Source: an uncultured SAR324 cluster bacterium
GTDB taxonomy: Bacteria; SAR324; NAC60-12
DNA length: 52,010 bases
Reading direction: 5' to 3'
Assembly: GCA_902590435.1 (NCBI GenBank)
Contig: CACIWU010000005.1
Location: 1-52,010, forward strand
The position numbers and the translations under genes are program-made. Position 1 is the stretch's first letter. The number at the start of each line of letters is the position of its first letter. The notes under the pieces are model-generated. The model saw nothing but the letters and a program-made list of their open reading frames with translations. It searched no databases and was not told the DNA's origin. Positions 5,929 through 33,697 of this stretch are shown in pieces.

Positions 5929-6199
5929 CAGAATATTAGATAAGATCCTTTATTAAACTATTTTAAAACTAATAATTAAAAAACAACTATATTTCAATTT
6001 GTGATAAATTCTATAGATATTAAGATAAAACAACAAGGGTTATCAAATTTAAAAACGGGTTACAATCATTTAAACTAAAATAATTTTTATAATTTAAAAA
6101 ATCATTCAAAAGATTTTAATATTGAGGGTTTAAAAACAATCAATAATCATAAAAGTAATAAAAATATAATATTTTTAATTGAAAAAAATCAAAAAAATC

Positions 6200-7228: not shown

Positions 7229-7238
7229 ATTTGAACAA

Positions 7239-8168
7239 TTAAACATTTCTAAAAATTGGAGTACTTGCCCATGAAAGACCAACACCAAATCCAGAAAGAA
7301 TTGCGACTTTCATTTCTAGATTATTGAATTCATTTGCAAGAATCATTGGAACTGAAGAAGAAACCGTGTTGCCATAATTATTAGAGTTGAAAGGACATTT
7401 ATTTCGGGGAACACCAAGTTTATCTGCTATTGAGTTTACTATATGGAGACTTCCTTGATGTAGTAGAAAAAGATCTATTTTTTCGATGGATAGATTGTTT
7501 TCTTTAATTGTTTTTAAAATATTTTTCGGAATTACCCTTACAGTAAAAGAGAAAACTGCACGTCCATTCATTTGGAGAAGACCATTATCACTTACAATTA
7601 TACCTTCTTTTTTTGTACCGTCTGACCCAAAAATAAATTTTCCCAATTCAAAAACTGGTTTATTCGTCATTAATGTAACAGTAGCTCCGTCTCCAAATAA
7701 TGTCGCCGTCTTTTTGTCGTTATTATTAATGATTTTTGAATATGGGTCTGCAGTAAAAAGTAGTCCTTTTTTTAATCCGTTAGATTCCATGAAAGATTTA
7801 ATTATAGAAAGTCCATAAACATAACCGGAACAACCTAAAGAAATGTCAAATGCAGCACAGTCTCGAGGAAACGAAAGTTTTTCATGAATAATTGCGGAAG
7901 TGTGAGGAATTCCATGTCCATCAGGATTTTGAGTACATACGATCAGACAATCGATTTCTTTAGATGTAATTGAATTTTGTTTTTTTAAATTTTTCCAAGC
8001 TTGGACACAAAGATCAGAAGTTTCTTGTTCCATTGACTTTTTCGACAACTCTCTGAAACCTATTTTTTCATGAACAAAAGATTCATTCATATCAAATTTT
8101 TCTAAGGATTTCAAATTTGATGTCCGATTTTCTGGTAAATAAGTCCCAACTTCATTTATGCCAATCAT
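7239..8168 (-). CDS. 3-oxoacyl-ACP synthase III / FabH-like ketoacyl synthase
   Basis: Active-site Cys in DISLGCSGYVYGL, His in LFLLHQGS, Asn in NYGNTVSSSVP; thiolase-fold layout. Confidence 0.85.
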   Translation of the reverse strand: MIGINEVGTYLPENRTSNLKSLEKFDMNESFVHEKIGFRELSKKSMEQETSDLCVQAWKNLKKQNSITSKEIDCLIVCTQNPDGHGIPHTSAIIHEKLSFPRDCAAFDISLGCSGYVYGLSIIKSFMESNGLKKGLLFTADPYSKIINNNDKKTATLFGDGATVTLMTNKPVFELGKFIFGSDGTKKEGIIVSDNGLLQMNGRAVFSFTVRVIPKNILKTIKENNLSIEKIDLFLLHQGSLHIVNSIADKLGVPRNKCPFNSNNYGNTVSSSVPMILANEFNNLEMKVAILSGFGVGLSWASTPIFRNV

Positions 8169-8174
8169 ATTTTT

Positions 8175-9149
8175 TTATTTTTCCTTAGAAAATGGTTTCC
8201 CTATAGCTCTAGGGGCAACAGCTTTACCGACAAAGCCAGCCAAAATGACAACCGTAAGTACATATGGTGACATTTCCAATATACTATCCAATAGTTTCAC
8301 TGGAACAAAATCTTTCAATATTTCAGATATCTCAGGTTTGTCTTTTATAGCAAATAAAATAGAAAATGCTAAGCATGCGAACATTGCATAGAAAGGTCTC
8401 CAGTTCCCAACAATCATTGCTGCCAATGCTAAATAACCTTTCCCAGCTGACATATCTTTTACAAAAAATCCTAAATGTGCTGTAGAGAGATAGGCACCAG
8501 ACATCCCTCCTAGAATTCCGTTTAAAATAAGAGCCTGGTAACGTATTTTATTAACCGATATTCCAGTAGTGTCTACTGCTAAAGGGTTTTCACCCGTGGC
8601 TCTAAGCCGTAAACCAAAACTACTTTTAAATACCAACCATGCAGTTAAAGGTACACTTAAAAAAGCAATGTAAACTAAAATGTTATGACCACTTATTAAT
8701 TCAAAATATATTTTTCCTAATATTGGAAAATTTTTTAAAACTTCTGAAAAAGGTAATTCAATCGGTAGGAATCGTGCCTCTTTTGGGAGTTGTGGAGTTG
8801 TTCCACCCATACCAAACCATGCATTCGCAAGAACAACCGTCAAGCCCATCGCAAAAATATTAATAGCAACACAAGAAACTACTTGATTACCTTTTTTTGT
8901 TACGCTGGCATATCCATGAATTAATGAAAAAATTATACCGATACAAATAGAACCTATGAGCCCAATCCACGCAGATTGACTCCAATGAGCAACTGTAGCT
9001 GCAACAAAAGCCCCACCTAACATTTTCCCTTCCAATCCAAAATCTATAACTCCAGATCTTTCTGCAAAAATACCTCCCATTGCGGCAAAAACAAATGGCA
9101 CTGAAATCCTAAGTGTTCCATCTAATATTAATATTAAATCATTCCACAT
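8175..9149 (-). CDS. nucleoside-type ABC transporter permease (NupQ/YufQ-like)
   Basis: MWNDLILILDGTLRISVPFVFAAMGGIFAERSGVIDFGLEGKMLGGAF, typical of BPD_transp_2 permeases partnered with BMP proteins. Confidence 0.9.
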   Translation of the reverse strand: MWNDLILILDGTLRISVPFVFAAMGGIFAERSGVIDFGLEGKMLGGAFVAATVAHWSQSAWIGLIGSICIGIIFSLIHGYASVTKKGNQVVSCVAINIFAMGLTVVLANAWFGMGGTTPQLPKEARFLPIELPFSEVLKNFPILGKIYFELISGHNILVYIAFLSVPLTAWLVFKSSFGLRLRATGENPLAVDTTGISVNKIRYQALILNGILGGMSGAYLSTAHLGFFVKDMSAGKGYLALAAMIVGNWRPFYAMFACLAFSILFAIKDKPEISEILKDFVPVKLLDSILEMSPYVLTVVILAGFVGKAVAPRAIGKPFSKEK

Positions 9150-9183
9150 AAAAATTCTTTCAATATGCTATTCTAACAGCTAA

Positions 9184-10296
9184 TCAGAATAATTTAGTTA
9201 CATTAATTTTTGGCAAAAAATGTTTTACAATATTTTCTATTTGTGGTCTGAAAAGATTTTCAAGTGCTCCAGCAAATAGTATTACCAAACCTTGAATAAG
9301 AACAACCATATGTCGATCTATAGATTGAACTTCAAAAGAAAGTTCTGCTCCACCCTGATAAAGAATCCCAAATAATAGCGAGGCCAAAAGAATACCCAAA
9401 GGATGATTTCGGCCAATCAGAGAAACTGCAATTCCAGTGAATCCTATCCCTTCTTGAAAATTTAGCATTATTCTGTGACTAGATCCCATAATTTCATTGA
9501 TACCTACAAACCCCGATAATCCTCCACCAATAGTCATAGCAATAACAATGTTCCGAGATACATTTATTCCTGCATAAATGGCTGCCGATTCGCTCGTCCC
9601 AACGGTTCTCAATTCATATCCCCAGCGGGTATACCAAATAAAACGCCACACCAAAAATAAACAAACTAAGGCAAAGAAAAATGTTCCATTTAGAGGAGTT
9701 TGGGTTATTATTATTCCAAACCAGTCAAATATTTCATGCATTTGAGGAATCCAAACTTTTTCAGCAAAAACTCTTGATTCAGGAGACATTTTTTCGGGAG
9801 GTCTTAGAACATGTGATAGGAGGTATACCATGACTACTGAAGCTATAAAATTGAACATAATTGTTGTTACAACCTCATGACTACCATGCCTACCTTTTAA
9901 ATATCCTGGAATAGCTCCCCAAAGTCCCCCAAAAATTATTGAAACTACTACTGCTAATGGAAATACCAGCAAAAGTGGCCAGTTTTCAAACCAAAGACAT
10001 ATCAATCCAACAGCCATCCCTCCAATATATGCCTGTCCCTCTGCACCAATATTGAACAATCCACAATGGAAACACACTGCAAATGCTAACCCAGTAAAAA
10101 TGAAATTTGTGGTGTAATAAAGAGTGTATCCCAAACCTTCTTCATAACCAAAAGCACCATATAGCATTGTTTTTAAGGCAAACCAAGGATCTTCGCCAAG
10201 AGACCAAATTACGATACCAGAAATAATAAAAGCAACTAAAAGATTGGTTGTTGTAATTAGAGTAACTATAATATTGTTAGTTCTGCTTTCTTTCAT
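9184..10296 (-). CDS. nucleoside-type ABC transporter permease (NupP/YufP-like)
   Basis: GLAFAVCFHCGLFNIGAEGQAYIGG; overlaps the stop of the upstream ATPase gene by 4 nt. Confidence 0.9.
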   Translation of the reverse strand: MKESRTNNIIVTLITTTNLLVAFIISGIVIWSLGEDPWFALKTMLYGAFGYEEGLGYTLYYTTNFIFTGLAFAVCFHCGLFNIGAEGQAYIGGMAVGLICLWFENWPLLLVFPLAVVVSIIFGGLWGAIPGYLKGRHGSHEVVTTIMFNFIASVVMVYLLSHVLRPPEKMSPESRVFAEKVWIPQMHEIFDWFGIIITQTPLNGTFFFALVCLFLVWRFIWYTRWGYELRTVGTSESAAIYAGINVSRNIVIAMTIGGGLSGFVGINEIMGSSHRIMLNFQEGIGFTGIAVSLIGRNHPLGILLASLLFGILYQGGAELSFEVQSIDRHMVVLIQGLVILFAGALENLFRPQIENIVKHFLPKINVTKLF

Positions 10297-11822
10297 AACG
10301 CCTCTTTTTTTATTCCTGCCATTAGCAATCCAATTTCTCTTTCACTTGCGTTATTAGCCAAAATTTCTCCCATAATTTGACCTTCAAACATTACTAATAT
10401 TCGATCACTCAAAGATAGTATTTCATCTAATTCAACAGAAACGAGTAAAACAGCCTTACCTGCGTCACGCATATCAATTATTTGTCGATGTATAAATTCA
10501 ATTGCTCCTATGTCAACCCCTCTAGTTGGTTGACCAACTACCAATAATTTCGGATCTCTAGCTATCTCACGAGCTAAAACCAGTTTTTGTTGATTCCCTC
10601 CAGAAAAAAGAGATACTTTCAAAAAAGGATTATCCGGCCTTACATCAAAATGTTTCATATTCTTTTCACAGGATTTAACGATTGCAACTTTGTCCATTTC
10701 TAAAAATCTGTTATATGAGGGATCTTTATGGTAGCCTAAAATAACGTTTTCGTTAGCAGAAAATTCTGTCACTAACCCTCTACGTTGTCTATCTTCAGGA
10801 ACATGTCCTATTCCTAATTTCCTCATAACAGCTGAATCAACATTCATATCATTTGTGATTATTTTTTTGTTGATATGGATTCTTCCATTTTGCAAGGGCC
10901 TTATTCCAGTTATTAAATCCATTAATTCTGACTGACCATTTCCTGAGACACCCGCAATCCCCAAAATTTCGCCGGAATGTACTTCAAAGTTAACATCTTT
11001 TACTCTTTGAACATATGAATCATCAACTAAGTTTATGTTTTCAACTTTTAAAATTACTTCACCTGGTTTTGCTGGTTCTTTGTCAATTCGGAGTATTACT
11101 TTCCTACCAACCATTAGTTCAGCCAAGTCTTCCTTGTTTGTCTCAGATGTTTGTCTGTGAGCAACCATTTTACCACCACGCATTACAGAGACATTATCAG
11201 TTATTGCCATGATTTCTCTGAGTTTATGCGTAATAAAAATTACTGTTTTTCCTTGATCACGTAACTCAGACAGAATACGAAATAAATGGTCTGCTTCCTG
11301 TGGAGTGAGTACACCTGTAGGCTCATCAAGAATAAGTATTTCTGCACCACGGTATAGTGCTTTAAGAATTTCAACCCTTTGCTGAAGTCCAACAGGTAGT
11401 GTATTGATAGTTGCATTAATATCAACCTCAAGGTGGTATTCTTTTTCAATATAGCTTAATTCTTTTGAAGAACGGTCTAAAGATTCAGTCAGAGAGAATC
11501 CGGATTCAGTTCCAAGTATAATATTTTCCAATACTGAAAAATTGTCAACAAGCATAAAATGCTGATGGACCATACCAATACCAGCAGAAATAGCATCGTA
11601 AGCACTTCGAATTAAAGTTTGTTTACCATGAATATTTATTTCACCTGAATCTGCTTGATAAAATCCATATAGGACACTCATTAATGTTGATTTACCTGCA
11701 CCATTTTCACCAATTATTCCGTGTATTGTTCCAGCCTTGACTTTAAGAGATACGTCTTTATTAGCGCAAATTTTCCCGAAATTTTTATTAATTTTTTCAA
11801 GTTCTATTGCTAAATTAGACAT
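10293..11822 (-). CDS. nucleoside-type ABC transporter ATP-binding protein, two ATPase domains (NupO/YufO-like)
   Basis: Walker A GENGAGKSTL and second half VSGNGQSELMDLI; Walker B LILDEPTGVLTP; second signature FSGGNQQKLVLAREI. Confidence 0.93.
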   Translation of the reverse strand: MSNLAIELEKINKNFGKICANKDVSLKVKAGTIHGIIGENGAGKSTLMSVLYGFYQADSGEINIHGKQTLIRSAYDAISAGIGMVHQHFMLVDNFSVLENIILGTESGFSLTESLDRSSKELSYIEKEYHLEVDINATINTLPVGLQQRVEILKALYRGAEILILDEPTGVLTPQEADHLFRILSELRDQGKTVIFITHKLREIMAITDNVSVMRGGKMVAHRQTSETNKEDLAELMVGRKVILRIDKEPAKPGEVILKVENINLVDDSYVQRVKDVNFEVHSGEILGIAGVSGNGQSELMDLITGIRPLQNGRIHINKKIITNDMNVDSAVMRKLGIGHVPEDRQRRGLVTEFSANENVILGYHKDPSYNRFLEMDKVAIVKSCEKNMKHFDVRPDNPFLKVSLFSGGNQQKLVLAREIARDPKLLVVGQPTRGVDIGAIEFIHRQIIDMRDAGKAVLLVSVELDEILSLSDRILVMFEGQIMGEILANNASEREIGLLMAGIKKEAL

Positions 11823-11885
11823 TATGTGGTGCTTTTGGAAGAAGTGTTAATGATGGTTACCAGAGATATCATTTCAACATAATTT

Positions 11886-12827
11886 TTATAATCTTGAGAG
11901 TCGTTCTAAAATCAATTGGAAAAACCCATCTGCATTAATTTGATTTATAAAAATTGCGTTAGGAGTACGATCAGTAACATTCCACCAGTCAACTACTGAC
12001 ATACCAATTGTGAATTCGGAATTTATTTCTACTTCAACGTTGACATGTCTTCCTTCAAAAAGATCTGGTTGAATTAGATATGCGATTACGGTGGGGTCGT
12101 GAAGGGGCCCTCCATTAGATCCATATTTTTCTTTATCAAACCTTTCATAATAGCTTAGCATCCCGTATGCAGCATCTCCAATTGGTGTACCTAAATCTCT
12201 CAAATTATATAGCCATTTTCTTTGCATTAAAGCTTTATGTGTAACATCAAGTGGCAACATCACTATTGGACGTCCACAACTTAATACTATTTTAGCTGCG
12301 TGAGGATCTACAAAAAAATTAAACTCAGCCGTTGGAGTTATATTCCCGCCTTCAAAAAAACCTCCACCCATAAGTACTATTTTATTAATTTTAGGAAGTA
12401 TTTCGGGTTTTTTTGTAATTGCCAAAGCGATATTCGTTAATGGAGCAAAGCAGCATATTGTTACAGAATCGTCTTTGGCATTCATTAGAGTTTCAATCGT
12501 CCAGTCAACACCATGTTCTTTCTGTAATGAAAACTTAGGCAATGGAAGATTTACTCCATCCAAACCCGTCTTCCCGTGGACATGCTCAGCTGTAACTAGA
12601 GGACGAATTAGAGGCCTAGAACATCCTGCAAAAACTTTAGTTTCTGGTTTATTAGCCAATTCGCAAAGCATTCTTGCATTTTTGGAGGTTAATTCTAATG
12701 GTACATTACCTGCTACAGTAACAATTCCTAAAACATTAAGTTCTTCTGGTGATGCTAATGCTAACAGAATACCAATAGCATCGTCTTGACCTGGATCAGT
12801 ATCAATAATTATTGGGCGGGGAGACAT
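11886..12827 (-). CDS. inosine-uridine preferring nucleoside hydrolase
   Basis: PIIIDTDPGQDDAIGILLALASPEE; VLMGGGFFEGGNITPTAEFNFFVDPHAA; GGPLHDPTVIAYL. Confidence 0.93.
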   Translation of the reverse strand: MSPRPIIIDTDPGQDDAIGILLALASPEELNVLGIVTVAGNVPLELTSKNARMLCELANKPETKVFAGCSRPLIRPLVTAEHVHGKTGLDGVNLPLPKFSLQKEHGVDWTIETLMNAKDDSVTICCFAPLTNIALAITKKPEILPKINKIVLMGGGFFEGGNITPTAEFNFFVDPHAAKIVLSCGRPIVMLPLDVTHKALMQRKWLYNLRDLGTPIGDAAYGMLSYYERFDKEKYGSNGGPLHDPTVIAYLIQPDLFEGRHVNVEVEINSEFTIGMSVVDWWNVTDRTPNAIFINQINADGFFQLILERLSRL

Positions 12828-12910
12828 GTTTGGTAGGTACTCAAGAATTATAGAGTTATTTTAAATTTTTAAAATATCTGTGATTTAATATTATTATCAC
12901 CGATTCAAAA

Positions 12911-12947
12911 AAAGTGGCAAAAGTAAATATTTTACTTTTGCCACTTT
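12911..12947 (-). terminator. perfect stem-loop (17-bp stem, 3-nt loop) with T-tract on the minus strand, just downstream of the BMP gene
   Basis: aaagtggcaaaagtaaa (12911-12927) and tttacttttgccacttt (12931-12947) are exact reverse complements; minus-strand read-out ends in a run of Ts then gaatc. Confidence 0.85.
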
Positions 12948-12952
12948 AAATA

Positions 12953-13954
12953 CTAATTAACAGGACATTTATTGTTACTCATGTAATCATGAACACTTAT
13001 TTTACCAGAAATTATATCTTTACGAACTTGTCCAACCTTAGATTTCATAGCACTAGAAACCAAATTTGAATTGTGCTCGTCTAGTGCCCAACCGACACCT
13101 TCCTCTGCAAGTCCAAGTATTTTTACGCCAGATTCCCATGTCCCATCTTGGGCAGATTTGAAAACTTGGTAAGCTGCAACATCTACTCTTTTTAACATAG
13201 AAGTTAATACCGAGCCTGGTTGAATATGATTCTGATTGCTATCAACACCAATGGACAGTTTTTTATTATCTGCAGCAGCCTGTAAAACTCCAAGTCCAGT
13301 ACTACCAGCTGCAGCATAAACAATATCAGCTCCACTGTCATACATTGTCTTAGCTAATTGTGCTCCACGAGCTGGGTCACTCCATGCCGCTGGTGTTGTA
13401 CCAGTCATTTTTTGAAAAACTGTAGTTCCCGAATTAATGTGTTTTACACCCTGTACATAACCACATGCAAATTTGTGTATTAGTGGGATATCCATTCCAC
13501 CTACAAATCCAACCTTGCCTGTTTTACTTTTCATTGCGGCTAGCACTCCCACAAGAAAGGATCCTTCATGTTCCTTGAAAGCTATTCCTTGAATGTTTGG
13601 TGCATCAAGCCACCCCACGTCAATGATACTGAATCTAGTGTTAGGGAATTCTTTCGCTACTTTTGCCACAGCATCTGCTTGACCAAATCCGACAGCAAGT
13701 ATAGGATCAGAACCTCTGCTCGCAAGCTTACGTAAGAACTGTTCACGTTGAGCTTCTTGCCGTACTTCAAATTCACGGTATTTTATTCCTGTTTCTTTAC
13801 GGAACTTTTCTAGTCCGTTCCAAATCCCCTCGTTAAATGACTTATCAAATTTACCACCCATGTCAAATAGAACAGCTGGTTTAAATGCCATTGCTAGAGA
13901 GGTACTCCAAATAACTATTCCTGTTGTAAGGATTATGGGAATCAATCTTTTCAT
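12953..13954 (-). CDS. BMP family (basic membrane protein) nucleoside ABC transporter substrate-binding protein
   Basis: Signal peptide, then FKPAVLFDMGGKFDKSFNEGIWNGLEKF; GFVGGMDIPLIHKFACGYVQGVKHIN; GADIVYAAAGSTGLGVLQAA. Confidence 0.93.
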   Translation of the reverse strand: MKRLIPIILTTGIVIWSTSLAMAFKPAVLFDMGGKFDKSFNEGIWNGLEKFRKETGIKYREFEVRQEAQREQFLRKLASRGSDPILAVGFGQADAVAKVAKEFPNTRFSIIDVGWLDAPNIQGIAFKEHEGSFLVGVLAAMKSKTGKVGFVGGMDIPLIHKFACGYVQGVKHINSGTTVFQKMTGTTPAAWSDPARGAQLAKTMYDSGADIVYAAAGSTGLGVLQAAADNKKLSIGVDSNQNHIQPGSVLTSMLKRVDVAAYQVFKSAQDGTWESGVKILGLAEEGVGWALDEHNSNLVSSAMKSKVGQVRKDIISGKISVHDYMSNNKCPVN

Positions 13955-14191
13955 AATTTACTCCTTTAAAATTCCGTAATTGTGTCCGGAAATGTTTTCT
14001 AAAATCCTCCTAGATTTTCAACAGGAGGTATGGGAACGATAGCTTCGACGTAATTATATCATAGTGTGCTAAAGAATTATATATATTTTAATTTCAGAGA
14101 AGATACAACTAATATTTTAAAATAAATTAAACAGTTTTTACCTGGATTCATTTTTTTATTATAATTTTAAATGTTTTTAATTCATCTAATT

Positions 14192-15082
14192 TTACAAATC
14201 TAATCCATCTAATCCATTTTGCCACCTAGCGGCATTGACAGTGTTAGCCATTAGCATTGCAATGGTCATTGGTCCAACTCCTCCTGGAACAGGAGTAATA
14301 TATGAGGTTTTAAATTTTACTTCCTCAAAGGCTACATCTCCTACTAGCTTGCTCCCTTTTAGCTTACTGGGATCATTTTTACGGTTAATACCTACATCAA
14401 TTACGACAGCTCCTTGTTTTACCATTTCTGTGTTAACAAATTCTGGAATTCCAATTGCAGCTATAAGAATGTCTGCCTGTGAAGTAACTTCTGATAAATT
14501 GGAGGTCCTTGAATGACAAACTGTTACAGTAGCATCCCAGCCTTTACTTGAAAGTAAAGTGGCTATTGGACGTCCAACTAGATTACTTCTTCCAAGTACT
14601 ACTGTATTTTTACCAGAAGTATTAATTCCTGATTGTTTTAACATTTGTAATACTCCGAAAGGAGTGCATGATATGAATTTTGGGTTACCCATCGCAATAA
14701 GACCAGCATTTAATGGGTGTAATCCATCAACATCTTTTTCCGGTGAAATAGTAAGAATTATTTTATTTTCATCAAGATCTTTCGGTAAAGGGAACTGGCA
14801 TAGAATTCCATGTACTGTATTGTCATTGTTAAGGGTTTTTACTAATTCTTCTAAGTCTTTTTGAGATGTTGATGCTGGAAAATCATGACCTATTGAACGG
14901 ATTCCTATCTCTTCACAAGTTCTCTTCTTATTGCGGACATAAACTTCAGATGCTGGATCTTCTCCTACCAAAATAACTGCTAGGCAAGGTTCAATTCCAT
15001 TTAATTTAAGCTCTTTTACTTCTTTTCGCAGTTTATCATTTATTTTTTTACTAATTACTTTGCCAGAAATCAACTCACTCAT
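14192..15082 (-). CDS. folD: bifunctional methylenetetrahydrofolate dehydrogenase / methenyltetrahydrofolate cyclohydrolase
   Basis: LAVILVGEDPASEVYVRNKKRTCEEIGI; VVLGRSNLVGRPIATLL; TPVPGGVGPMTIAMLMANT. Confidence 0.96.
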   Translation of the reverse strand: MSELISGKVISKKINDKLRKEVKELKLNGIEPCLAVILVGEDPASEVYVRNKKRTCEEIGIRSIGHDFPASTSQKDLEELVKTLNNDNTVHGILCQFPLPKDLDENKIILTISPEKDVDGLHPLNAGLIAMGNPKFISCTPFGVLQMLKQSGINTSGKNTVVLGRSNLVGRPIATLLSSKGWDATVTVCHSRTSNLSEVTSQADILIAAIGIPEFVNTEMVKQGAVVIDVGINRKNDPSKLKGSKLVGDVAFEEVKFKTSYITPVPGGVGPMTIAMLMANTVNAARWQNGLDGLDL

Positions 15083-16240: not shown

Positions 16241-16350
16241 TGCAAAAAAATAATATTTTTCGTATATTTCCTATTCCTATGGGATGTTTTACAGAAGTTG
16301 TATTAGTAATTATTTCCTTTATATTGATTTTCACGATTACTAAATTCTAG
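16240..16350 (+). CDS. 36-aa single-TM microprotein candidate, start overlapping the ygfZ stop (ATGA)
   Basis: Manual translation: MQKNNIFRIFPIPMGCFTEVVLVIISFILIFTITKF*; below the length cutoff of the ORF track. Confidence 0.5.
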   Translation: MQKNNIFRIFPIPMGCFTEVVLVIISFILIFTITKF

Positions 16351-17396
16351 TTTATAAAACGAAAAATACTATCATAAAATAGATATTGATAGAGGGTAAG
16401 ATTATTAGCTAGCAAATAATAGTAGTCATCTTCTAAATTTCTGTAGAATTTCCTTTGGATACTCCATTTTCGCTTATAATCATCCATGCTCAGTTTATTA
16501 ACACCAAAGTCAATATTAACTTTTTGATCAGACTGATTGAGATAGATAACGGAAGGAGCGAATTCGTTTCTGTTTGATTTAGAAATAATTTTTATTGAAT
16601 CTTCAAAAAATTGAAGTTTATAACTCAATACTTTAGGTGGATACCAAGCTTTTTTATCTTGATTATCAGTTAGTAAACTAGGTCGATGATCTAAAACATT
16701 TTGTGGTTTTTTAAAAGTATTATTTTTTATTTTTCCAATTACTTGTATTGGAGTTAGTTCACTGAAATTGACAAACTTTTTGAATTCATCATGTATAATC
16801 CCTGAATTTGATTTGCGTTTTATTTTAAGACCGATACTGTTTATTGTATAGTCCGTAAGTTGCATTAAATCAATACGGTATACCAAATCTTCTATGAAGA
16901 ATATTCCTGTTTCACCTGAAACATTTCCTGTTAATATTTTGTTATTAGGAGTATTAATTTTTACTTGTAAAATCATTTCGTCTGCCAATCTAAGATTGGA
17001 GAATAATTTATTAAATTCAAATTCAACTTTGCCTGTAATTAAAATCTTTTTCCAATGTTCCTTTTCTAAAAGTGCTTCTTTCAGTTCAGGATCTTGCATT
17101 AAAGTAGCTTCTAGTCTTTTAAATGCTTTTTTAAAATATTTTAAATTTAAAAAATTTTTATAAGTTTTAAAGTTTTCCTTTGACACATGTTTGTTAACTC
17201 TACTCAATGATTTTACAATTTTTAAATTGTTTGGATCTTCAATTAATGCTAAACGGTATTCAATTGCTGATTCTTCCCAACGTTTTTCTTTTTCTAATTG
17301 AATTCCTTTGTCATAGTGAATCGAACAACCTAAAAATAGAAATGAAATTAGAAAAAGTAAAAAAAAAACAATGTTTTCATAAAAGTAATTTTTCAT
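16347..17396 (-). CDS. lipoprotein with TPR-like N-terminal region, function unknown
   Basis: Lipobox FLFLGCS; GIQLEKEKRWEESAIEYRLALIEDPNNLKI reads like a TPR unit. Confidence 0.7.
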   Translation of the reverse strand: MKNYFYENIVFFLLFLISFLFLGCSIHYDKGIQLEKEKRWEESAIEYRLALIEDPNNLKIVKSLSRVNKHVSKENFKTYKNFLNLKYFKKAFKRLEATLMQDPELKEALLEKEHWKKILITGKVEFEFNKLFSNLRLADEMILQVKINTPNNKILTGNVSGETGIFFIEDLVYRIDLMQLTDYTINSIGLKIKRKSNSGIIHDEFKKFVNFSELTPIQVIGKIKNNTFKKPQNVLDHRPSLLTDNQDKKAWYPPKVLSYKLQFFEDSIKIISKSNRNEFAPSVIYLNQSDQKVNIDFGVNKLSMDDYKRKWSIQRKFYRNLEDDYYYLLANNLTLYQYLFYDSIFRFIN

Positions 17397-17856: not shown

Positions 17857-18708
17857 ATGAAAAAAATTTACAAATTGCTTTTAAGTATAATGTTAATCGT
17901 GTTTAGTATTCAAAACATTGTGAATGCTATAGGGTGTAAAGAGCTAGAAACAGCGAAAAAAATAAATGATTTTATGAACAAATCCTACATGTCAAGCCCT
18001 TTACTTCAGAAAAACATAAGTTTAACTCTTATATTAGATGCATGTGAAGGAAAGGTCTGTAAGTCGAAAAAAAAACGTTCTACAGAAAAAGAAAATCTTC
18101 GTATTTTGAAATACGAAAATAAACGTCGTATTTTCGCAGAAAAAGGACCAAACGCTCCGCGTTGTATTATAAAAAGAGGGGGTCGTCGTTTTATTTGTTC
18201 AAGTTGTAGTTTAGTTTCGAATGAAAACTGCAGAAGTTTTCCATCAGATGAGAGTACTATTTTCCCTGGAACAAATATCGATTCGTCTGATTTTACTTTA
18301 ACATCAAAATTTGGAAAAGATTCGAGATGTTCTAAACTAAAAAATCCTAATTTTTTCAAAATAGAGACAAAAATAAAAGATGGATTAGTTGAAACTGGAG
18401 GGAATTATGATAGGGTGGTAAGTTTTTATGACAAAAAAAAAGGAGTACCCATATTAATGAATTTTTATGCAGAGAAAGTTCTCCGTAAAGTTTACCGTTT
18501 TTTCCCAAAGTATTATGTTAAAGTTGGAGGTAAATGGTTTTCATCTGTTATGAGAGTTCGTACAACATTAGGAACTGAAAAAAAGTTTGTTTTTGAAACA
18601 CTGACTCATGTCAAAAAAAATAAAGGTAGACTAAAACTTTATTTAAATATATCTGACGATCCCGACCTAAAAAATGTGCCACCTGAATCGTTATTCAGTA
18701 CGGACTGA
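17857..18708 (+). CDS. secreted Cys-rich protein, LolA-like (outer membrane lipoprotein-sorting protein-like) C-terminal half
   Basis: Signal peptide; C-terminal YDRVVSFYDKKKGVPILMNFYAEKVLRKVYRFFPKYYVKVGGKWFSSVMRVRTT resembles LolA-like partners of MMPL/RND proteins; eight Cys in the mature region. Confidence 0.6.
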   Translation: MKKIYKLLLSIMLIVFSIQNIVNAIGCKELETAKKINDFMNKSYMSSPLLQKNISLTLILDACEGKVCKSKKKRSTEKENLRILKYENKRRIFAEKGPNAPRCIIKRGGRRFICSSCSLVSNENCRSFPSDESTIFPGTNIDSSDFTLTSKFGKDSRCSKLKNPNFFKIETKIKDGLVETGGNYDRVVSFYDKKKGVPILMNFYAEKVLRKVYRFFPKYYVKVGGKWFSSVMRVRTTLGTEKKFVFETLTHVKKNKGRLKLYLNISDDPDLKNVPPESLFSTD

Positions 18709-18762
18709 ATATTTTCTATCCGACACTCCGGAAGTATTATTATTCAAGATTTTGGTAATGAA

Positions 18763-20835
18763 ATGGCCATAATTGTTAAGTTGTTTTTTTCGATTTTTTC
18801 GATTTCCATTTTAGTATTTCCTATTCCTGTTATTTCTCAAGAAAATAGTGAATCTGGAATTCATGAAAATTTTGTGAAAGATCCTCTATCAAAAAGTGAA
18901 TCAAATCAAATTTTCGATGAAGATCCCTTATCAGAAACCGATACAGATTTGGGTTTGGTTGAAGATCCTCAAATAAGTAATGAATCTGATCAGAGTTTCA
19001 AAAACACTAATATTGAAAATATTGGTCTAGATTCAGTTTCAGACGAAGACATTTTAGATGATAATCAATCAGAAGAATTAAGTCAGGAAGAAAACATTGA
19101 AGAGATCGATAAATCCTCTGATCTTGAAGTAGATCCTTTTGATGAGAATGAATCAGAAGGAGTAACTCAAGAAAATAATCTTGAAGAATCCGATGAAAAT
19201 TTAGGGTTGGAATCAGATCCTTTTGATGAGAATGAATCAGAAGGAGTAACTCAAGAAAATAATCTTGAAGAATCTGATGAAAATTTAGGGTTGGAAACAG
19301 ATCCTTTTGATGAGAATGAATCAGAAGGAGTAACTCAAGAAAATAATCTTGAAGAATCCGATGAAAATTTAGGGTTGGAAACAGATCCTTTTGAAGAGAC
19401 TGATACTAGTCTTGATTTAGGTGAAGATACTTTCTCAGAAGATTCAAATTATGAAAGTGAAAATATAAAAAAATATCAGAAGAATGGAAACCAGAATGAC
19501 ATAGAACAAATTTTGGAAGAGGAAGAGTTTACTCCAAAAGTATTTTTCAGTCATGAAGTAAAAACAATGCTTGGTGGTAGTGAGACTAAAGGACTTTCAC
19601 TATTAGATCCATTGTTAAGTGAAATCAAAGAAATCCGATTAGTGACAACCTATGATCAATCTGTAAAAGTTCAAACATCTCCTCAGATGTACAATTATTT
19701 CCGTCTTTCCATAAGTTTTTCACAAAATTATGAATTACAAAAAAAGAGAATTTTTGATGGTTTTGCAACTTTACGAGAAATTTATTCAAATTACAGGGTT
19801 GGTTCTCATCAGATTCGTTATGGAACTCAGATTTTTGATTTAGGTAAAGTTGATCTAGATAAGGTAATTGACGTTTTACATATGAACAACATTATGGGTA
19901 TTTACACTTTTGATCCTGATGACTCTAAAGATGCGATACCTTCAATTCGATATAATTGGTTTCGTGGAGGACATACAGCTACTTTTTTTATTTCTCCAAT
20001 ACGTCAGCAAACATTTGGTATGAGGTTTACTGAATTTCGTGAAGATGTGGAAAAAAAAGAACAAGGTAATGAAGGTGGAAAAGTCTCATTTTTAAGGGAT
20101 TATTATGGACTCCAATATCAATGGACTGGTGAAATAATGGATACTAGATTAGGTATGTTTCATTGGTTTGATTCTAATCCATATATTAAGCTTGAATATC
20201 AGAAAGTGGGAGACAATGGAACAACTTTACAAGGTTCTTTTGAGAATATGCTCTCAAACTATAATGAGAAAGAAACAAGATCAGATTTTCTAACTCTAGA
20301 AATAGATGCTACTTGGACAGATATGGTATGGAAATTTGAGTCTGGCTTTTTTAAAAAAAGAAATTTATATTCCTATGAAGTTCCAGAAGGAGAAGTAGTC
20401 AGACTTTCAACTTTAAGCGCACCACATTTTGCTTTTTCAACCTCGTTAGAAAGGACTTTTCCTTATTTTTATTGGCTTATGCTATTTTCTCATAGAAAGT
20501 GGTATGACGTTCCGTCAAATTCACATGTGTTTTTGTACGAAAATGAATCAGATCTTGTTTCTAAAAAAAGAGATTTATTTCGAAATCAAGTTTCAGGCGT
20601 GGCAGTTTTAAAGACACCTGATAATTCTTTGCGAATAACTCTTTTAAATTATCAAACATGGCCATTTAAACAGAAAGGATTTGCTTCTCTATTTACATGG
20701 GAGCGTTTTAAAGAAGATATGGAACTGGAACTAAAATTTTTTAGATTGGAAACAGAAAAACAAAAGATGCTACAAGACAAAATAAAAACAAACCAGATAT
20801 TTTTGACATACACTCAAAAATTTAAAGCGAACTGA
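18763..20835 (+). CDS. acidic-repeat protein with C-terminal outer-membrane porin-like (DUF1302-like) domain
   Basis: Signal peptide, Asp/Glu-rich N-terminal region with 28-aa repeats, then LREIYSNYRVGSHQIRYGTQIFDLGKVD and alternating beta-strand-like segments; between a LolA-like gene and an RND gene. Confidence 0.6.
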   Translation: MAIIVKLFFSIFSISILVFPIPVISQENSESGIHENFVKDPLSKSESNQIFDEDPLSETDTDLGLVEDPQISNESDQSFKNTNIENIGLDSVSDEDILDDNQSEELSQEENIEEIDKSSDLEVDPFDENESEGVTQENNLEESDENLGLESDPFDENESEGVTQENNLEESDENLGLETDPFDENESEGVTQENNLEESDENLGLETDPFEETDTSLDLGEDTFSEDSNYESENIKKYQKNGNQNDIEQILEEEEFTPKVFFSHEVKTMLGGSETKGLSLLDPLLSEIKEIRLVTTYDQSVKVQTSPQMYNYFRLSISFSQNYELQKKRIFDGFATLREIYSNYRVGSHQIRYGTQIFDLGKVDLDKVIDVLHMNNIMGIYTFDPDDSKDAIPSIRYNWFRGGHTATFFISPIRQQTFGMRFTEFREDVEKKEQGNEGGKVSFLRDYYGLQYQWTGEIMDTRLGMFHWFDSNPYIKLEYQKVGDNGTTLQGSFENMLSNYNEKETRSDFLTLEIDATWTDMVWKFESGFFKKRNLYSYEVPEGEVVRLSTLSAPHFAFSTSLERTFPYFYWLMLFSHRKWYDVPSNSHVFLYENESDLVSKKRDLFRNQVSGVAVLKTPDNSLRITLLNYQTWPFKQKGFASLFTWERFKEDMELELKFFRLETEKQKMLQDKIKTNQIFLTYTQKFKAN
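19132..19404 (+). repeat. 84-bp tandem repeat (28 aa), three full copies plus a partial fourth
   Basis: Unit DPFDENESEGVTQENNLEESDENLGLE(S/T) at 19132-19215, 19216-19299, 19300-19383, then DPFEETD from 19384; units nearly identical at DNA level. Confidence 0.95.
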
Positions 20836-20843
20836 AGCAAACA

Positions 20844-23800
20844 ATGTTTATTCGATTTTTCACTTCATTAAATCAATACCCTAAGTTGATTATTTTATGT
20901 GTACTTTTATCTAGTGTGTTTTTTTTCATTAAAGGAAAAGAGGGTCTTTTTGATTCAGAAAGTGGAAGATTACGTATAAACAGTACGGTTGAACCATTCA
21001 TAGAAAGAGATTCAGGTGCATACAAACAATTCCTCGAGGCTCGGGAAGCCTTTGGTAGCGAGGAGGTTGTAGTGATAGCACTTCATAATTCTGAAAAAAC
21101 TCCTGTGGATCTAGAAATCCTTTTGACACTTTCTCAAATGAAATCAGAAATTGAGTCAGGAGTTCCAGGAGTTTCGAGAGTACTTACGATGCTTGATATT
21201 CCTCAAGCATCTGGAAAATGTGCAGGAAAATCCTATTTTCACAAAATGGGCATAGGCTCAGTTTGTTTTTCAATTTTAGAAAAATATGAACATGAAATAT
21301 CATGCTTAAATGATACTACTTTAAAAAAACATCCATCATCCGATTCAGAAGATAGTTTGGATGAAGATATAGAAGATAGTTTGGATGAAGATATAGAAGA
21401 TAGTTTGGATGAAGATATAGAAGAAGGTTTGGAAGAGGATCTTGAAGTAAGTAATAAGGACTTTAATGGTGTTTTGCCTAAAGAAGATTCTTCTGATGTA
21501 TTATTTTTTAACTGTAAATTAAAAAAATCAGAAAAAACTTCACAACAAATTTATGCTGAAACGGAACTACAAATAAATAATATTGTTAATGGGTTAAAAA
21601 ATCATCCACTATTTCAGGGTGATTTGCTTTCAAAAAATTTGAATACAACAGCGTTGATACTTACCTTTAGTCCTGACTCAAAACCTGAGTCAGAAAAGAC
21701 TCAATCAATATTAAAGGGAATTATCAAAGAATATCAAAACAAGTCAGAAAATTTAAGTTTTCTTCGAATTGGATATGCCGGACAATCCAGGCAAATTAAC
21801 AAGGCTGGTTTTTTGATTCAAAATGATATGAAAATCATTCTTCCATTAAGTATTCTGTTAATAGTGGTAGTACTTTTAATTTCATTTCGAAGTATTAAGG
21901 CAGTAATTATACCTTTATCTGTAGTATTGTCTGGAATTATATGGACTGCCGGAATAATAGGCTGGATTGGAGATGAGCTTAATTTAGTTACAATGGCATG
22001 TGCTCCAATTATTATTTGCGTAGGTAGTGCTTACGTTATAAAGTTTATCAGTCAGTATCAAATAGAATCTAAAATAATAAGAGAATCAAAAAATGAAGGA
22101 GACCCTCTGGATTCAATTCCAAAGATTATTTCTGTAACTCTATCTACAGTGAGTATTCCTGTTACTGTTACTGCAATTACTACAGTTGCTGGTTTTATTG
22201 CCCTTATGATAAGTCCAATTCCCGCAGTACAGCAATTGGGTTTCTATTCAAGCGTAGGTATAATTTCAATTAATTTGTTTACTCTTACTTTAGCCCCTGC
22301 CTTACTTCATTACATTCAGATGCCCGAATTAGTAGTAAGTGGAAAAGGAGATGGTCTACTTAATCGTTTTTTTTACATAATAGTAGAATGGCTCAGAATT
22401 CATTCAAAACGATTAATATTGATTTGGATTTTAATTGCTGGGTTATCTGCTATTGGGATGTTGAGGCTTAGTATTAACAGTTCCACCAATACTTTCCCAG
22501 AAAACAGTTCACTAGTACAAGACTTAAAATTAATTGAAAATGAATTGTCAGGAACGGACACATTTCGCTTGTTGTTCAAAGCTAAAGAAGAAAAAAAATC
22601 TACTGAAATAAATCCTTTGACAACTGCTGAGACAATTATTGGACTAAAAAAATTCCAAGATTGGTTATTTCAGTTAAATGGAACTACAGAAATTGGGAAT
22701 ATTGATGGACTCAGAATTGATAAAATTCATTCTCCAGTAGAAGTTTTTGCTCATTACAGAAGGGGGCTTGAAAAACTAACTGATGAAGAAGTTGTTAAAT
22801 TTTTTAAAAAAACTAATAAAAATGGACCAAATTTTTTAAATGAAAAAGAAGATCTTATGCAAATTACTATAAGAATGAGAAGTAATGGATCTACTTCTTT
22901 TCTGGAATTAAGAGATTTGCTTATCAAAAAAATACCACAATTTTTGCCTTATTTACAGTTCAGTTATACGGGTGGAGGTATTCTTTCAAGTGAATCTGCA
23001 AATAACATTGCCCAAGGTCAAATAGATAGTGTGATTTTGGCTCTTGTTATTGTGTTTGTAATTCTTTCATTGCTTTTCCTATCTTGGAAGATGGGAGTAG
23101 TCGCATTATTCCCAAATGTTATAACAATTCTTATATTTTTTGGTTCTCTTGGTTGGCTTGATATTCCGATAGGGGTTACAATTTCAGTTATTGCCGCTAT
23201 CGCGTTGGGAATAGGAGTAGATGACACGATTCATTTTTTAAGTCACTACAACGAAAATGCCAATAAGCTAAGGAATAAAAGAGAAGCTTCATTGAAAACG
23301 TTGCCAATTGTAGGACGTCCAATGTTGTTTTCAACTACTGCTTTGTTCGCAAGCTTTATACTATTTTTACTATCGGATATGGAATCTATAGTCTTATTTG
23401 GTACTTTCACAGCGTTAACTCTTCTAGTGTGTGTCGCAATAGACATGACTTTTTTACCTTCTGTAGTAATGGAAACTGGGTTGATTACTGTTTGGGATTA
23501 TGTGGGTTTAAAATTTGATGAAAAATTTATAGAAGGCATAGACTTATTTCAGAATATGACTGTTAGAGAAGCAAAAATTGCTAGCCTGATGGCCTATACA
23601 GAAGATTTAAAGCAAGGGACATTACTATTTACAGAAGGTGAAATTGGTGACGAAATGTATGTTGTCCTTGAAGGATCAATTTCCATATTTATGCAAAAAG
23701 ATGGTAGTCGTACTGACTTAGCACTATTAGAAAAGGGTAATACATTTGGAGAAATGGGTCTTTTCAGAAAAGCAGAGCGAAGTGCAAGTGCCGAAGCTGC

Positions 23801-24458
23801 AGAAAAAACGAGGGTTCTAGTAGTTAATCGAGATTGTCTTGAGCCATTGAAAAAGCGTAATCCTAAAATTGCTGCGAAGTTGTTTTTAAACCTTGCCAAT
23901 CGGCTTCAAAATTCTCTAAAAGAAACAGACGAGAGGTTGCTTACACAAAAATTATTTGATCTGGCAAATCTAGAAAAATTAACTGATGACGTAAAATTGG
24001 AACAGCAAGAAAGCTTAATCAATCCTAATGAAATTTGGCAAAACTTAGGAGAAAAATGGCAAAATAAATTACTTTTGTTTAGTGAAACATATTCGGTCTT
24101 AAGAGGGAAAAGACTTTCAAAAATCAAAAATAGAAAAGGTGATTATTTATTTATCATTTCTGGAGAAATAGAGGTTGAATCTAAAGTTTCTCCTAATAGT
24201 GATAATTTTTCTGTAGGATATTGCTGGACAAGAAAAGGATTTGATTTAATTGGAGAATTTTCTCTATGTTCGGGAGGAGAAAAAGCTTTGGCTAGCACTA
24301 TTGCAAGACAAGATTCAACTTTGATTAAATTTACAAAATCAAATTTATTAGACTTAGCTGACCAGGAGTCTAGAATGGCTGTTAAATTCTTTGAGAACAT
24401 TGTTTGTCTCCTTTCCGATCAACTTGCTATTGCAGATAAACGTTTGCAAGTTCATTAA
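20844..24458 (+). CDS. RND/MMPL superfamily transporter with two C-terminal cyclic-nucleotide-binding (cNMP) domains
   Basis: Two multi-TM halves; GIGVDDTIHFLSHY motif; C-terminal GTLLFTEGEIGDEMYVVLEGSISIF...GNTFGEMGLFRKAERSASA (cNMP), then a second degenerate copy GDYLFIISGEIEVES...FDLIGEFSLCSGGEKALAS. Confidence 0.88.
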   Translation: MFIRFFTSLNQYPKLIILCVLLSSVFFFIKGKEGLFDSESGRLRINSTVEPFIERDSGAYKQFLEAREAFGSEEVVVIALHNSEKTPVDLEILLTLSQMKSEIESGVPGVSRVLTMLDIPQASGKCAGKSYFHKMGIGSVCFSILEKYEHEISCLNDTTLKKHPSSDSEDSLDEDIEDSLDEDIEDSLDEDIEEGLEEDLEVSNKDFNGVLPKEDSSDVLFFNCKLKKSEKTSQQIYAETELQINNIVNGLKNHPLFQGDLLSKNLNTTALILTFSPDSKPESEKTQSILKGIIKEYQNKSENLSFLRIGYAGQSRQINKAGFLIQNDMKIILPLSILLIVVVLLISFRSIKAVIIPLSVVLSGIIWTAGIIGWIGDELNLVTMACAPIIICVGSAYVIKFISQYQIESKIIRESKNEGDPLDSIPKIISVTLSTVSIPVTVTAITTVAGFIALMISPIPAVQQLGFYSSVGIISINLFTLTLAPALLHYIQMPELVVSGKGDGLLNRFFYIIVEWLRIHSKRLILIWILIAGLSAIGMLRLSINSSTNTFPENSSLVQDLKLIENELSGTDTFRLLFKAKEEKKSTEINPLTTAETIIGLKKFQDWLFQLNGTTEIGNIDGLRIDKIHSPVEVFAHYRRGLEKLTDEEVVKFFKKTNKNGPNFLNEKEDLMQITIRMRSNGSTSFLELRDLLIKKIPQFLPYLQFSYTGGGILSSESANNIAQGQIDSVILALVIVFVILSLLFLSWKMGVVALFPNVITILIFFGSLGWLDIPIGVTISVIAAIALGIGVDDTIHFLSHYNENANKLRNKREASLKTLPIVGRPMLFSTTALFASFILFLLSDMESIVLFGTFTALTLLVCVAIDMTFLPSVVMETGLITVWDYVGLKFDEKFIEGIDLFQNMTVREAKIASLMAYTEDLKQGTLLFTEGEIGDEMYVVLEGSISIFMQKDGSRTDLALLEKGNTFGEMGLFRKAERSASAEAAEKTRVLVVNRDCLEPLKKRNPKIAAKLFLNLANRLQNSLKETDERLLTQKLFDLANLEKLTDDVKLEQQESLINPNEIWQNLGEKWQNKLLLFSETYSVLRGKRLSKIKNRKGDYLFIISGEIEVESKVSPNSDNFSVGYCWTRKGFDLIGEFSLCSGGEKALASTIARQDSTLIKFTKSNLLDLADQESRMAVKFFENIVCLLSDQLAIADKRLQVH
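21348..21443 (+). repeat. 24-bp tandem repeat (EDSLDEDI), three exact copies plus one degenerate
   Basis: gaagatagtttggatgaagatata at 21348-21371, 21372-21395, 21396-21419; degenerate copy to 21443. Confidence 0.95.
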
Positions 24459-24576
24459 ATAATTTTTTAATTTTAATAAAATTATATTGCCCAATTTAAG
24501 TTTTATTTTGGAAGTGAGGGTAAAATTATTTAAAACAATATTATATAATTAAATAACATTATTTTATAGAATTTAA

Positions 24577-24954
24577 TTGTTAAGTTCAGATCAAAAAATA
24601 TTAATTGTTGATGACTTTGCAACTAGAAGATTCATTATAAAAAATATTTTAAATGAAATTGGATTTGCAAATATCTTTGAGGTTTCTGATGGTTATTATG
24701 CTTTGGCTAGTCTTAGGTCTATGATTTTTGATTGTGTGATCACAGAATGGGAAATGAAAGAAATGTCAGGATTAGAATTACTTAAACAAATCCGGGCGGA
24801 TCGATCACTCAAAAATATTCCTGTATTAATTGCCACAGAAGATGGGATTATCGAAAATATTGTTTCTGCAACTAAAGCAGGAGCAAACGGTTTCCTATTA
24901 AAGCCTTACAAAAAAGCAGTATTTTCCAAAAAGTTTGATGAACTTTTTGAGTGA
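24577..24954 (+). CDS. CheY-like single-domain receiver with Glu at the phospho-acceptor position
   Basis: LIVDDFATRRFIIKNILNEIGF...DCVITEWEMKEMSGLELLKQIRADRSLKNIPVLIATEDG...ANGFLLKPY; strong CheY-like layout, TTG start. Confidence 0.85.
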   Translation: MLSSDQKILIVDDFATRRFIIKNILNEIGFANIFEVSDGYYALASLRSMIFDCVITEWEMKEMSGLELLKQIRADRSLKNIPVLIATEDGIIENIVSATKAGANGFLLKPYKKAVFSKKFDELFE

Positions 24955-31623: not shown

Positions 31624-32400
31624 ATGCTTAAAAAAAGAATTTGGGAAATCCTTGAAATCAGTAAGGAAAACGATAATAATAGCAAATACTTTGACTATTT
31701 TATTTCTATATTAATATCTTTAAACGTTTTTGCAATAATACTTGAAACTGAAAAGACGTTAGCTTCTGAGTACAAATCTTTTTTTAATTATTTTGAGTTA
31801 TTTTCAATATTTATCTTCAGTATAGAATATTTGCTAAGGATATGGTCATGCGTTTCGGCGGAATTATATAAAAATCCTTTGACAGGAAGAATTAAATATT
31901 TTTTTTCACCTTTGGCCATCATTGACCTTATATCAATTGCTCCTTTCTTCATAGCATATTTTGTTGTTGATGCAAGAATACTTAGGATTTTAAGACTTTT
32001 AAGAATATTTAGAATTACCAAGCATATTCGTTATTCAAAAACCTTCCAAATTATTGTAATCACAATCGATAAGAAAAAAGAAGAGTTATTGTCTGCGTTG
32101 GTACTGATGTTATGTCTCTTACTGATTTGCTCAACTGGTGTTTATTTTGCTGAAAATGAAGCTCAACCGTACAAGTTTTCCAGTATAATTTCCTCAATGT
32201 GGTGGGCAGTTGCTACTTTGACTACGGTGGGATACGGAGATATTTTTCCTATAACTACTATGGGCAAATTGTTCGGTTCAATTTCAGCAATTTTTGGAGT
32301 GGGTCTTTTTGCAATTCCTGCAGGTATTTTAGCTTCTGGTTTCACTGCTGATATTGAAGTAAAATATAAGAATTGTCCGCATTGCGGTGAAAAAATATAG
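31624..32400 (+). CDS. voltage-gated potassium channel (6TM)
   Basis: S4-like DARILRILRLLRIFRITKHIR and selectivity filter TLTTVGYGDIFP; C-terminal CPHCGEKI. Confidence 0.93.
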   Translation: MLKKRIWEILEISKENDNNSKYFDYFISILISLNVFAIILETEKTLASEYKSFFNYFELFSIFIFSIEYLLRIWSCVSAELYKNPLTGRIKYFFSPLAIIDLISIAPFFIAYFVVDARILRILRLLRIFRITKHIRYSKTFQIIVITIDKKKEELLSALVLMLCLLLICSTGVYFAENEAQPYKFSSIISSMWWAVATLTTVGYGDIFPITTMGKLFGSISAIFGVGLFAIPAGILASGFTADIEVKYKNCPHCGEKI

Positions 32401-33697
32401 GGTACTTTCTAATCTTCATAAAAAATACGAAATGACTTTTCAAATAATTCACTTTTTAACAGATTTATTAAAAGATCCTATAATTCAATTAGGATTCAAA
32501 GAGGTAATAGCAAGAGAATTAGTTCGTGGGATTCTAATATTATTTATTCTTTTACTAAGTTTGTTTGTGTACAAAATTACACAGGGTCCATTTATTAAAT
32601 ATTTAGAAAAATTATCTACTAATACTAACATGCAATGGGATAATTATTTAGTAGAAAGAAGAGTTTTTCATCGCCTCCTTAATTTCATACCACTAATTTT
32701 AATTTACATATTAATTCCACCAGTTTTAGCTAAAACAAATTTTTTAACTTTTAGCCAATCATTAATAAATGCTTTGTTCATTATACTCGCAATGATGACA
32801 TTGGATGCTTTTTTAAATGCAGTTTTGGATATTTATGCCAAAACTTCAATATCAAAGGAAATTTCCATAAGACCTTTTGTACAGGTATTTAAATTGGTTC
32901 TTTATTTTGTGACGGTTATTTTATTGTTGTCATTAATATTACAAAAAACCCCATTATATTTTCTAAGTGGTTTAGGTGCATTAACAGCAGTACTAATGTT
33001 TGTTTTTAAAGATGTTCTTATGGGATTTGTAGCTGGGATTCAGTTAATTGCAAATAAGATGGTTGCTCCTAAGGATTGGATAGAAATGCCAAAATACGGA
33101 GCTGATGGTGATGTAATTGAAATAACTCTAACTACTGTAAAAGTAAAAAACTTTGATAACACAATTACAACTATCCCTACTTATGCCCTTATCAATGAGT
33201 CATTTAAAAATTGGCGCAATATGAGTTTGTCGGGAGGTAGACGTATAAAAAGATATGTAAATATTGATATTAGCAGCATCAAATTTTGTAATAATGAAAT
33301 GTTAGAAAAATTCAGAAGGGTTCAATTAATTAGTGGTGTCATAATGGAAAGGCAAGAAGAAATTAAGTTATATAATGAAAAACAAAGTGTTGATGAAAGT
33401 ACATTAGTGAATGGTCGTAGATTAACCAACATAGGTATTTTTAGAACTTATGTTGAGGAATATCTTAAGCAACACCCAATGATTCATAATGAAATGACTT
33501 TTCTGGTACGTCAATTATCTCCACGAGAAAATGGACTGCCAATTGAAATCTATGTTTTTTGCACAGATACAAACTGGGCAAATTATGAAAAAGTACAAGC
33601 AGATATCTTTGATCATATTTTGGCTGTTGTGCCAGAATTTGAATTAAGAGTATTTCAGGAACCTACAGGCTCTGATTTTCAAAGTCTTTCAAAATAA
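32387..33697 (+). CDS. MscS-family mechanosensitive channel (YbdG/MscM-like)
   Basis: FKDVLMGFVAGIQLIANKMVAPKDWIEMPKYGADGDVIEITLTTVKVKNFDNTITTIPTYAL; C-terminal FLVRQLSPRENGLPIEIYVFCTDTNWANYEKVQADIFDHILAVVPEFELRVFQEPTGSDF. GTG start overlapping the channel gene by 14 nt. Confidence 0.92.
   Translation: MKKYRVLSNLHKKYEMTFQIIHFLTDLLKDPIIQLGFKEVIARELVRGILILFILLLSLFVYKITQGPFIKYLEKLSTNTNMQWDNYLVERRVFHRLLNFIPLILIYILIPPVLAKTNFLTFSQSLINALFIILAMMTLDAFLNAVLDIYAKTSISKEISIRPFVQVFKLVLYFVTVILLLSLILQKTPLYFLSGLGALTAVLMFVFKDVLMGFVAGIQLIANKMVAPKDWIEMPKYGADGDVIEITLTTVKVKNFDNTITTIPTYALINESFKNWRNMSLSGGRRIKRYVNIDISSIKFCNNEMLEKFRRVQLISGVIMERQEEIKLYNEKQSVDESTLVNGRRLTNIGIFRTYVEEYLKQHPMIHNEMTFLVRQLSPRENGLPIEIYVFCTDTNWANYEKVQADIFDHILAVVPEFELRVFQEPTGSDFQSLSK

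Follow-up and report, generated by a model that had tools for sequence, protein, structure and literature searches.

In Castellaniella defragrans, the AmeABCD system combines an HAE3-type RND protein with a LolA-superfamily (DUF1329) periplasmic protein and a DUF1302 outer-membrane protein; mutants lacking ameABCD showed a higher net influx of dye and withstood monoterpenes less well (PMC6394551). The TOL_3187/TOL_3188 pair of Thalassolituus likewise places a porin-like gene next to that of an MMPL protein bearing a LolA-like domain; its expression is tied to long-chain alkane, and no CNB (cyclic nucleotide-binding) domain is reported for it (PMC6304351). Control of RND pumps is usually described as acting on transcription or through small partner proteins (PMC10710835). 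CNB domains as an added regulatory module are mentioned for MFS transporters, which belong to another transporter superfamily, in the available portion of a review of transporter control, and that portion names no RND example. Here we describe three adjacent genes in a 52,010-nt stretch of DNA from an uncultured SAR324 cluster bacterium (hereafter the window; contig C5 of a 1.5 Mb genome, 54% complete), encoding a LolA-fold carrier, an outer-membrane beta-barrel and an RND pump fused to CNB domains (RND-CNB). The closest relatives that bear a name are MAGs of the SAR324 cluster / Candidatus Lambdaproteobacteria. This trio is a variant of the AmeABCD type of cassette, because its barrel appears remotely related to DUF1302 and its carrier is predicted to have a LolA/DUF1329 fold. 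What is new is the RND lineage with fused CNB domains; the kind of cassette is known. Literature searches, which covered few subscription journals, returned nothing relevant on an RND-CNB fusion or on SAR324 in connection with cyclic nucleotides.

The trio occupies positions 17857–24458 of the window on the + strand and is closely packed, with gaps of 54 and 8 nt between its members and 118 nt before a downstream receiver gene (from the list of open reading frames, ORFs, in the window). An initial annotation had described a block of four co-directional genes, namely a Cys-rich LolA-like protein, an outer-membrane-like protein, an RND pump fused to cyclic nucleotide-binding domains, and a pseudo-receiver, with acidic repeats in two of the partners. 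All four ORFs are present on the + strand at the annotated coordinates, and the features are as follows.

17857–18708, + strand: Cys-rich LolA-fold periplasmic protein, 283 aa, the proposed carrier (ORF; PF17131, E = 1.7e-4; AlphaFold model)
18763–20835, + strand: outer-membrane beta-barrel protein, 690 aa, apparent remote DUF1302 relative and proposed conduit (model and profile match)
19131–19403, + strand: N-terminal acidic tract of the barrel protein, built of 3.3 tandem copies of an 84-nt unit
19510–20832, + strand: predicted beta-barrel domain, residues 250–690 (predicted structure, fold matches)
20844–24458, + strand: HAE3/MMPL-type RND protein with two C-terminal CNB domains, 1204 aa (ORF, profiles, alignment)
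21318–21461, + strand: acidic repeat insert of the RND protein, in periplasmic loop 1 between invariant C154 and C224 (24-nt unit)
23214–23231, + strand: GVDDTI motif of transmembrane helix 10 (TM10), RND residues 791–796, with candidate proton-relay acids (D793 and D794, invariant)
23586–23879, + strand: CNB domain 1 (CNB1), residues 915–1012, phosphate-binding cassette FGEMGLFRKAERSASA (Pfam PF00027, alignment)
24066–24455, + strand: CNB domain 2 (CNB2), residues 1075–1204, degenerate cassette (second cNMP_binding stretch, Arg motif lost)
24577–24954, + strand: CheY-like receiver, a neighbour judged to lie outside the system

Residues 1–880 of the pump are of HAE3/MMPL type, with two Pfam MMPL stretches (E = 4.5e-35) and a match to TIGR00921 (HAE3; E = 3.7e-50) that falls under the subfamily cut-off. 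Its hydrophobic segments form two clusters, with loops at residues ~32–329 and 543–728. Two MMPL halves with about 12 transmembrane helices and two large periplasmic loops, as read from the sequence, are those of a member of the HAE3/MMPL branch of the RND superfamily. D793 and D794 of TM10 are invariant across the RND alignment, a similar motif is found in HAE3 proteins of the phylum that lack a CNB tail, and these residues are putative proton-relay acids of the membrane core. The C-terminal tail was recognized with high significance by the cNMP_binding profile (PF00027) in two stretches (E = 1.7e-25; 89.2 bits, cut-off 27.5), and the predicted fusion was thus borne out at the level of sequence profiles. 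Matches of CNB1 in the PDB were to the regulatory domains of CRP, PKA, PKG and Epac. Its cassette (Gly-Glu...Arg-Ser-Ala) is of the CRP/PKA type, including the Glu and Arg of a phosphate-binding cassette; G969 and R979 are invariant and E970 nearly so among 15 diverse homologues. CNB2 is degenerate, having lost the Arg motif in the alignment, and the corresponding position in relatives gives weak CNB matches. Since the tail comes after the last transmembrane helix, it is expected from RND topology to lie on the cytosolic side. Class III cyclases were found in 40/40 genomes examined, with four matches in the window's own genome.

For the carrier, the match to PF17131 (LolA_like; 21.7 bits) lies under the cut-off of 30, and the AlphaFold model (predicted local distance difference test score, pLDDT, 77) was matched by Foldseek to 3BK5 (E = 1.3e-8), 3BUU (2.9e-7) and 4Z48 (DUF1329; 3.1e-7), pointing to the predicted LolA/DUF1329 fold. 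Comparison of its profile with the ordinary PF17131 carriers of SAR324 was weak (E = 0.004, probability 9), and we therefore claim no membership of the LolA-like/DUF1329 families (PF17131, PF07044) for it on sequence grounds. Six cysteines are invariant among 16 carrier homologues (C6, C82, C93, C96, C104 and C137 in trimmed numbering) and two more nearly so (C42 and C47), in line with the Cys-rich description, and hence the carrier probably represents a disulfide-rich branch of the LolA fold. Inspection by eye also suggests a type I signal peptide. For the barrel protein, residues 250–690 were modelled as a confident beta-barrel (pLDDT 86.8), as anticipated for an outer-membrane-like protein. 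The nearest solved folds are AlgE and porins, with uptake channels such as OccK also among them. A Pfam search at E up to 1 returned zero hits, leaving PF06980 (DUF1302) below its cut-off. Nonetheless, a profile built from 20 homologues matched an alignment of DUF1302-type proteins of SAR324 with a probability of 97% (E = 3.1e-11, 244 columns), and a single Pfam-recognized DUF1302 protein with 62%, whereas two further partner proteins lacking a DUF1302 hit reached 0.4% and 4.5%. These profiles indicate a distant relationship between the barrel and DUF1302.

Acidic repeats occur in the barrel and RND proteins, as initially annotated. The tract in the pump consists of 4.2 copies of a 24-nt unit at 21347–21447, and the N-terminal 250 residues of the barrel protein are acidic and repetitive. 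In nearly all members of the genus, this N-terminus contains ~26–35% Asp+Glu, but repeat units and lengths differ. Because the composition stays while repeat number and unit vary, the region would suit a role as a rapidly evolving spacer or as a linker that binds ions. Strongly acidic N-termini were also seen in CNB-free DUF1302-type barrels of SAR324 (L155, 1472–3247; L159, 3656–5110; L153, 1152–2561). Given that such barrels share this property, acidic linkers in the periplasm seem to be a general tendency of the phylum, and the idea that acidic repeats are a hallmark of the RND-CNB system is weakened.

Conservation of the trio, on which the initial annotation had staked its proposal, is strong. 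The three genes are kept in the window's genus (RND identity ~66–73%) and recur in three families of the phylum (f1, f2 and f3) in unrelated gene contexts, in the orders LolA-outer-membrane protein-RND or RND-LolA-outer-membrane protein, or with a divergent outer-membrane protein. Among 52 phylum genomes, 27 have the LolA-like gene, 29 the barrel gene and 30 the gene for the CNB-fused RND, and the three almost always accompany one another. Outside the genus, Fisher tests of co-occurrence gave p = 9e-9, 1.3e-6 and 1.3e-7 with kinship ignored; the turnover of neighboring genes around an unchanged trio supports the set independently of kinship. Both adjacency in many neighborhoods and near-perfect co-occurrence therefore argue for a conserved set. 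Several incomplete cases coincide with contig ends, which cut the RND gene in genome G033 and mark the start of the barrel gene in G019. At one further locus (L037; contig C19 of genome G022, 5961–14411), two CNB-fused RND genes lie tail-to-tail with one LolA-like gene, and the partners are on other contigs.

Compared with AmeABCD, the SAR324 trio likewise has adjacent, jointly conserved genes for an HAE3 RND, a LolA-superfamily protein and a DUF1302-type barrel. It differs in having a barrel and a carrier only remotely similar to those families, a carrier rich in Cys, and acidic inserts, whereas AmeD has 787 aa with no CNB tail reported (PMC6394551). AmeABCD also has a fourth member, the YCF48-like periplasmic protein AmeC; no such gene was seen adjoining the trio, either in the window or in relatives, and the YCF48-like stretch 14 kb away belongs to a different protein. 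Because an AmeABCD-type cassette was already known, calling the locus an undescribed system overstated the case. Within SAR324 itself, CNB-free sets of RND, PF17131 LolA-like and DUF1302 genes are common. Six of these (L153, L155, L159, L164, L166 and L168) contain the same three kinds of part, several with acidic barrel N-termini, but lack the CNB tail and have an RND of another clade, ordinary PF17131 carriers and DUF1302-type barrels. The HAE3 family also includes the hopanoid transporter HpnN. Hopanoid export was rejected, as the pump scored 107.6 bits in comparison to a cut-off of 751.85 and no hopene cyclase was found in the 52 phylum genomes.

To place the fused pumps, a tree was built from 47 RND proteins with the CNB columns left out of the alignment. 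All 22 CNB-bearing rows fell on one side of a branch (SH-aLRT support 93), forming two groups that each received a support of 100. One is the SAR324 trio; the other pairs a protein from a Thalassospira marina plasmid with one from SAR324 genome G049. The deep join between these groups is uncertain because the branches are long. In both members of the second group, the CNB1 cassette retains Glu and Arg, and the RND gene adjoins a LolA-like gene of the ordinary PF17131 kind, along with a third gene that may encode a barrel. On plasmid pCSC3H3 of T. marina (L137, 5134–10419), genes for a LolA-like protein, the RND-CNB and a 464-aa possible barrel stand in a row (WP_101286616, WP_101286615 and WP_101286614). 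Its RND lies on the same side of the branch as the SAR324 fusions, but the set has only one CNB domain, no acidic insert and no Cys-rich carrier; it is a possible culturable model for the cassette. Distribution beyond SAR324 was based on plasmid searches, and a single-sequence scan of genome contigs returned 3 loci. In G049 (L141; contig C86, 19–11725, minus strand), the barrel, LolA-like and single-CNB RND genes lie directly upstream of a gene for a 2071-aa PfaA-like polyketide/polyunsaturated fatty acid (PUFA) synthase, a neighbor that offers a substrate hint for this branch of fused RNDs. The window's own genome (G000) also has a PfaA-like PUFA synthase, on contig C17 (11251–18732), where the match contains one in-frame TGA, possibly an assembly error.

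The analysis shows the gene set, the predicted folds of its two partners, the fusion, the conserved cassette motif, the co-conservation and the presence of cyclases. That the three genes stay together across many SAR324 species suggests a transport line with a switch operated by an internal signal, and we lean, if only slightly, towards a proton-driven trans-envelope transporter of hydrophobic compounds or lipids gated by cAMP or cGMP. On the model of AmeABCD (PMC6394551) and of HAE3 transporters in general, the route would be outward, from pump to carrier to barrel. Using the proton gradient by way of the two TM10 Asp residues, the RND protein would extract a substrate of hydrophobic or lipid-like nature from the inner membrane; the carrier would ferry it through the periplasm, and the barrel would move it into or through the outer membrane. 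CNB1 would bind cAMP or cGMP made by class III cyclases and switch the pump on or off, and CNB2 would probably be structural. Transport itself, substrate class, direction, ligand, gating and sign of control are inferred. Several observations weigh against it. For example, the TM4 acid common in relatives is missing here (VGSAYV), one copy of CNB1 (L042) lacks the Glu, and in G022, a true exception to co-conservation, the parts are partly scattered. Moreover, the support of 93 for the fusion having arisen once lies below the starred level and the branches are long, and the third Thalassospira gene is without a Pfam hit, nor does its profile match the SAR324 barrel significantly. CNB folds may also bind other ligands or no ligand at all.

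The most serious competing explanation is that this is an ordinary RND/LolA-like/DUF1302 transporter whose CNB tail is structural or serves for docking, with neither cyclic-nucleotide binding nor gating. CNB folds lacking a cyclic-nucleotide ligand do exist, CNB2 is degenerate, and elsewhere in the phylum the same kind of cassette works with no CNB tail; on the other side, the CNB1 cassette, Glu and Arg included, persists over deep divergence, also in the Thalassospira and G049 branch, and cyclases are universal in the 40 sampled genomes, so that we regard a purely structural tail as rather unlikely. Direction is a separate matter. Uptake of hydrophobic compounds, or retrieval of lipids from the outer membrane, is a live rival to export because the MMPL protein with a LolA-like domain and its neighboring porin in Thalassolituus are strongly raised on long-chain alkane (PMC6304351), and the nearest folds of the barrel include uptake channels (porins and OccK). 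However, characterized HAE3 proteins are described as outward movers, and loss of ameABCD lets more dye in and makes cells less tolerant of monoterpenes (PMC6394551); inward movement is thus possible but less probable again than a structural tail.

Two narrower proposals fare worse. Export of PUFA-type lipids made by PfaA-like synthases is suggested by the adjoining synthase in G049, but four trio genomes (G026, G028, G033 and G034) have no PfaA match and many PfaA genomes have no trio. As the two distributions do not track each other, a PUFA-synthase product is unsupported as the general substrate, and we consider this version very unlikely. A single signaling-transport unit of four genes, with the receiver as a member, is largely refuted and the least probable of all. 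In its favor, the receiver lies downstream of the RND gene on the same strand, is kept there in the genus, and no terminator-like site was found in the 118-nt gap. Its constancy within the genus says little, however, because the whole neighborhood is syntenic there, and no receiver adjoins any trio outside the genus, even in the sister genus g4 (G019), which retains the AcyP-ParA-HtpG flank. The receiver was therefore rejected as a component, contrary to the initial annotation. The term pseudo-receiver holds for the window and four relatives, which have Glu at the phospho-acceptor position, but not for 9/14 genus members, which have Asp.

Other features of the window lie outside the trio. Upstream, a divergently transcribed gene for a TPR-type lipoprotein-like protein (16347–17396) is kept beside the trio in the genus only. 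Further downstream, a gene for an Ion_trans voltage-gated-type channel overlaps one for an MscS-type mechanosensitive channel (31624–33697). A 1156-aa protein (38587–42057) has five Big_12 Ig-like stretches, two Big_5 stretches and a C-terminal YCF48-like propeller, and its gene is followed by one for a pentapeptide-repeat protein.

We tentatively propose, with confidence somewhat short of even, that an RND lineage in SAR324 and in at least one alphaproteobacterium is under direct post-translational control by cyclic mononucleotides, as part of a three-protein lipid or hydrophobe line. If true, a fused CNB sensor with an intact motif would link a second messenger directly to envelope lipid or hydrophobe traffic, and this cyclic-nucleotide link would sit in a marine phylum with class III cyclases in every sampled genome.

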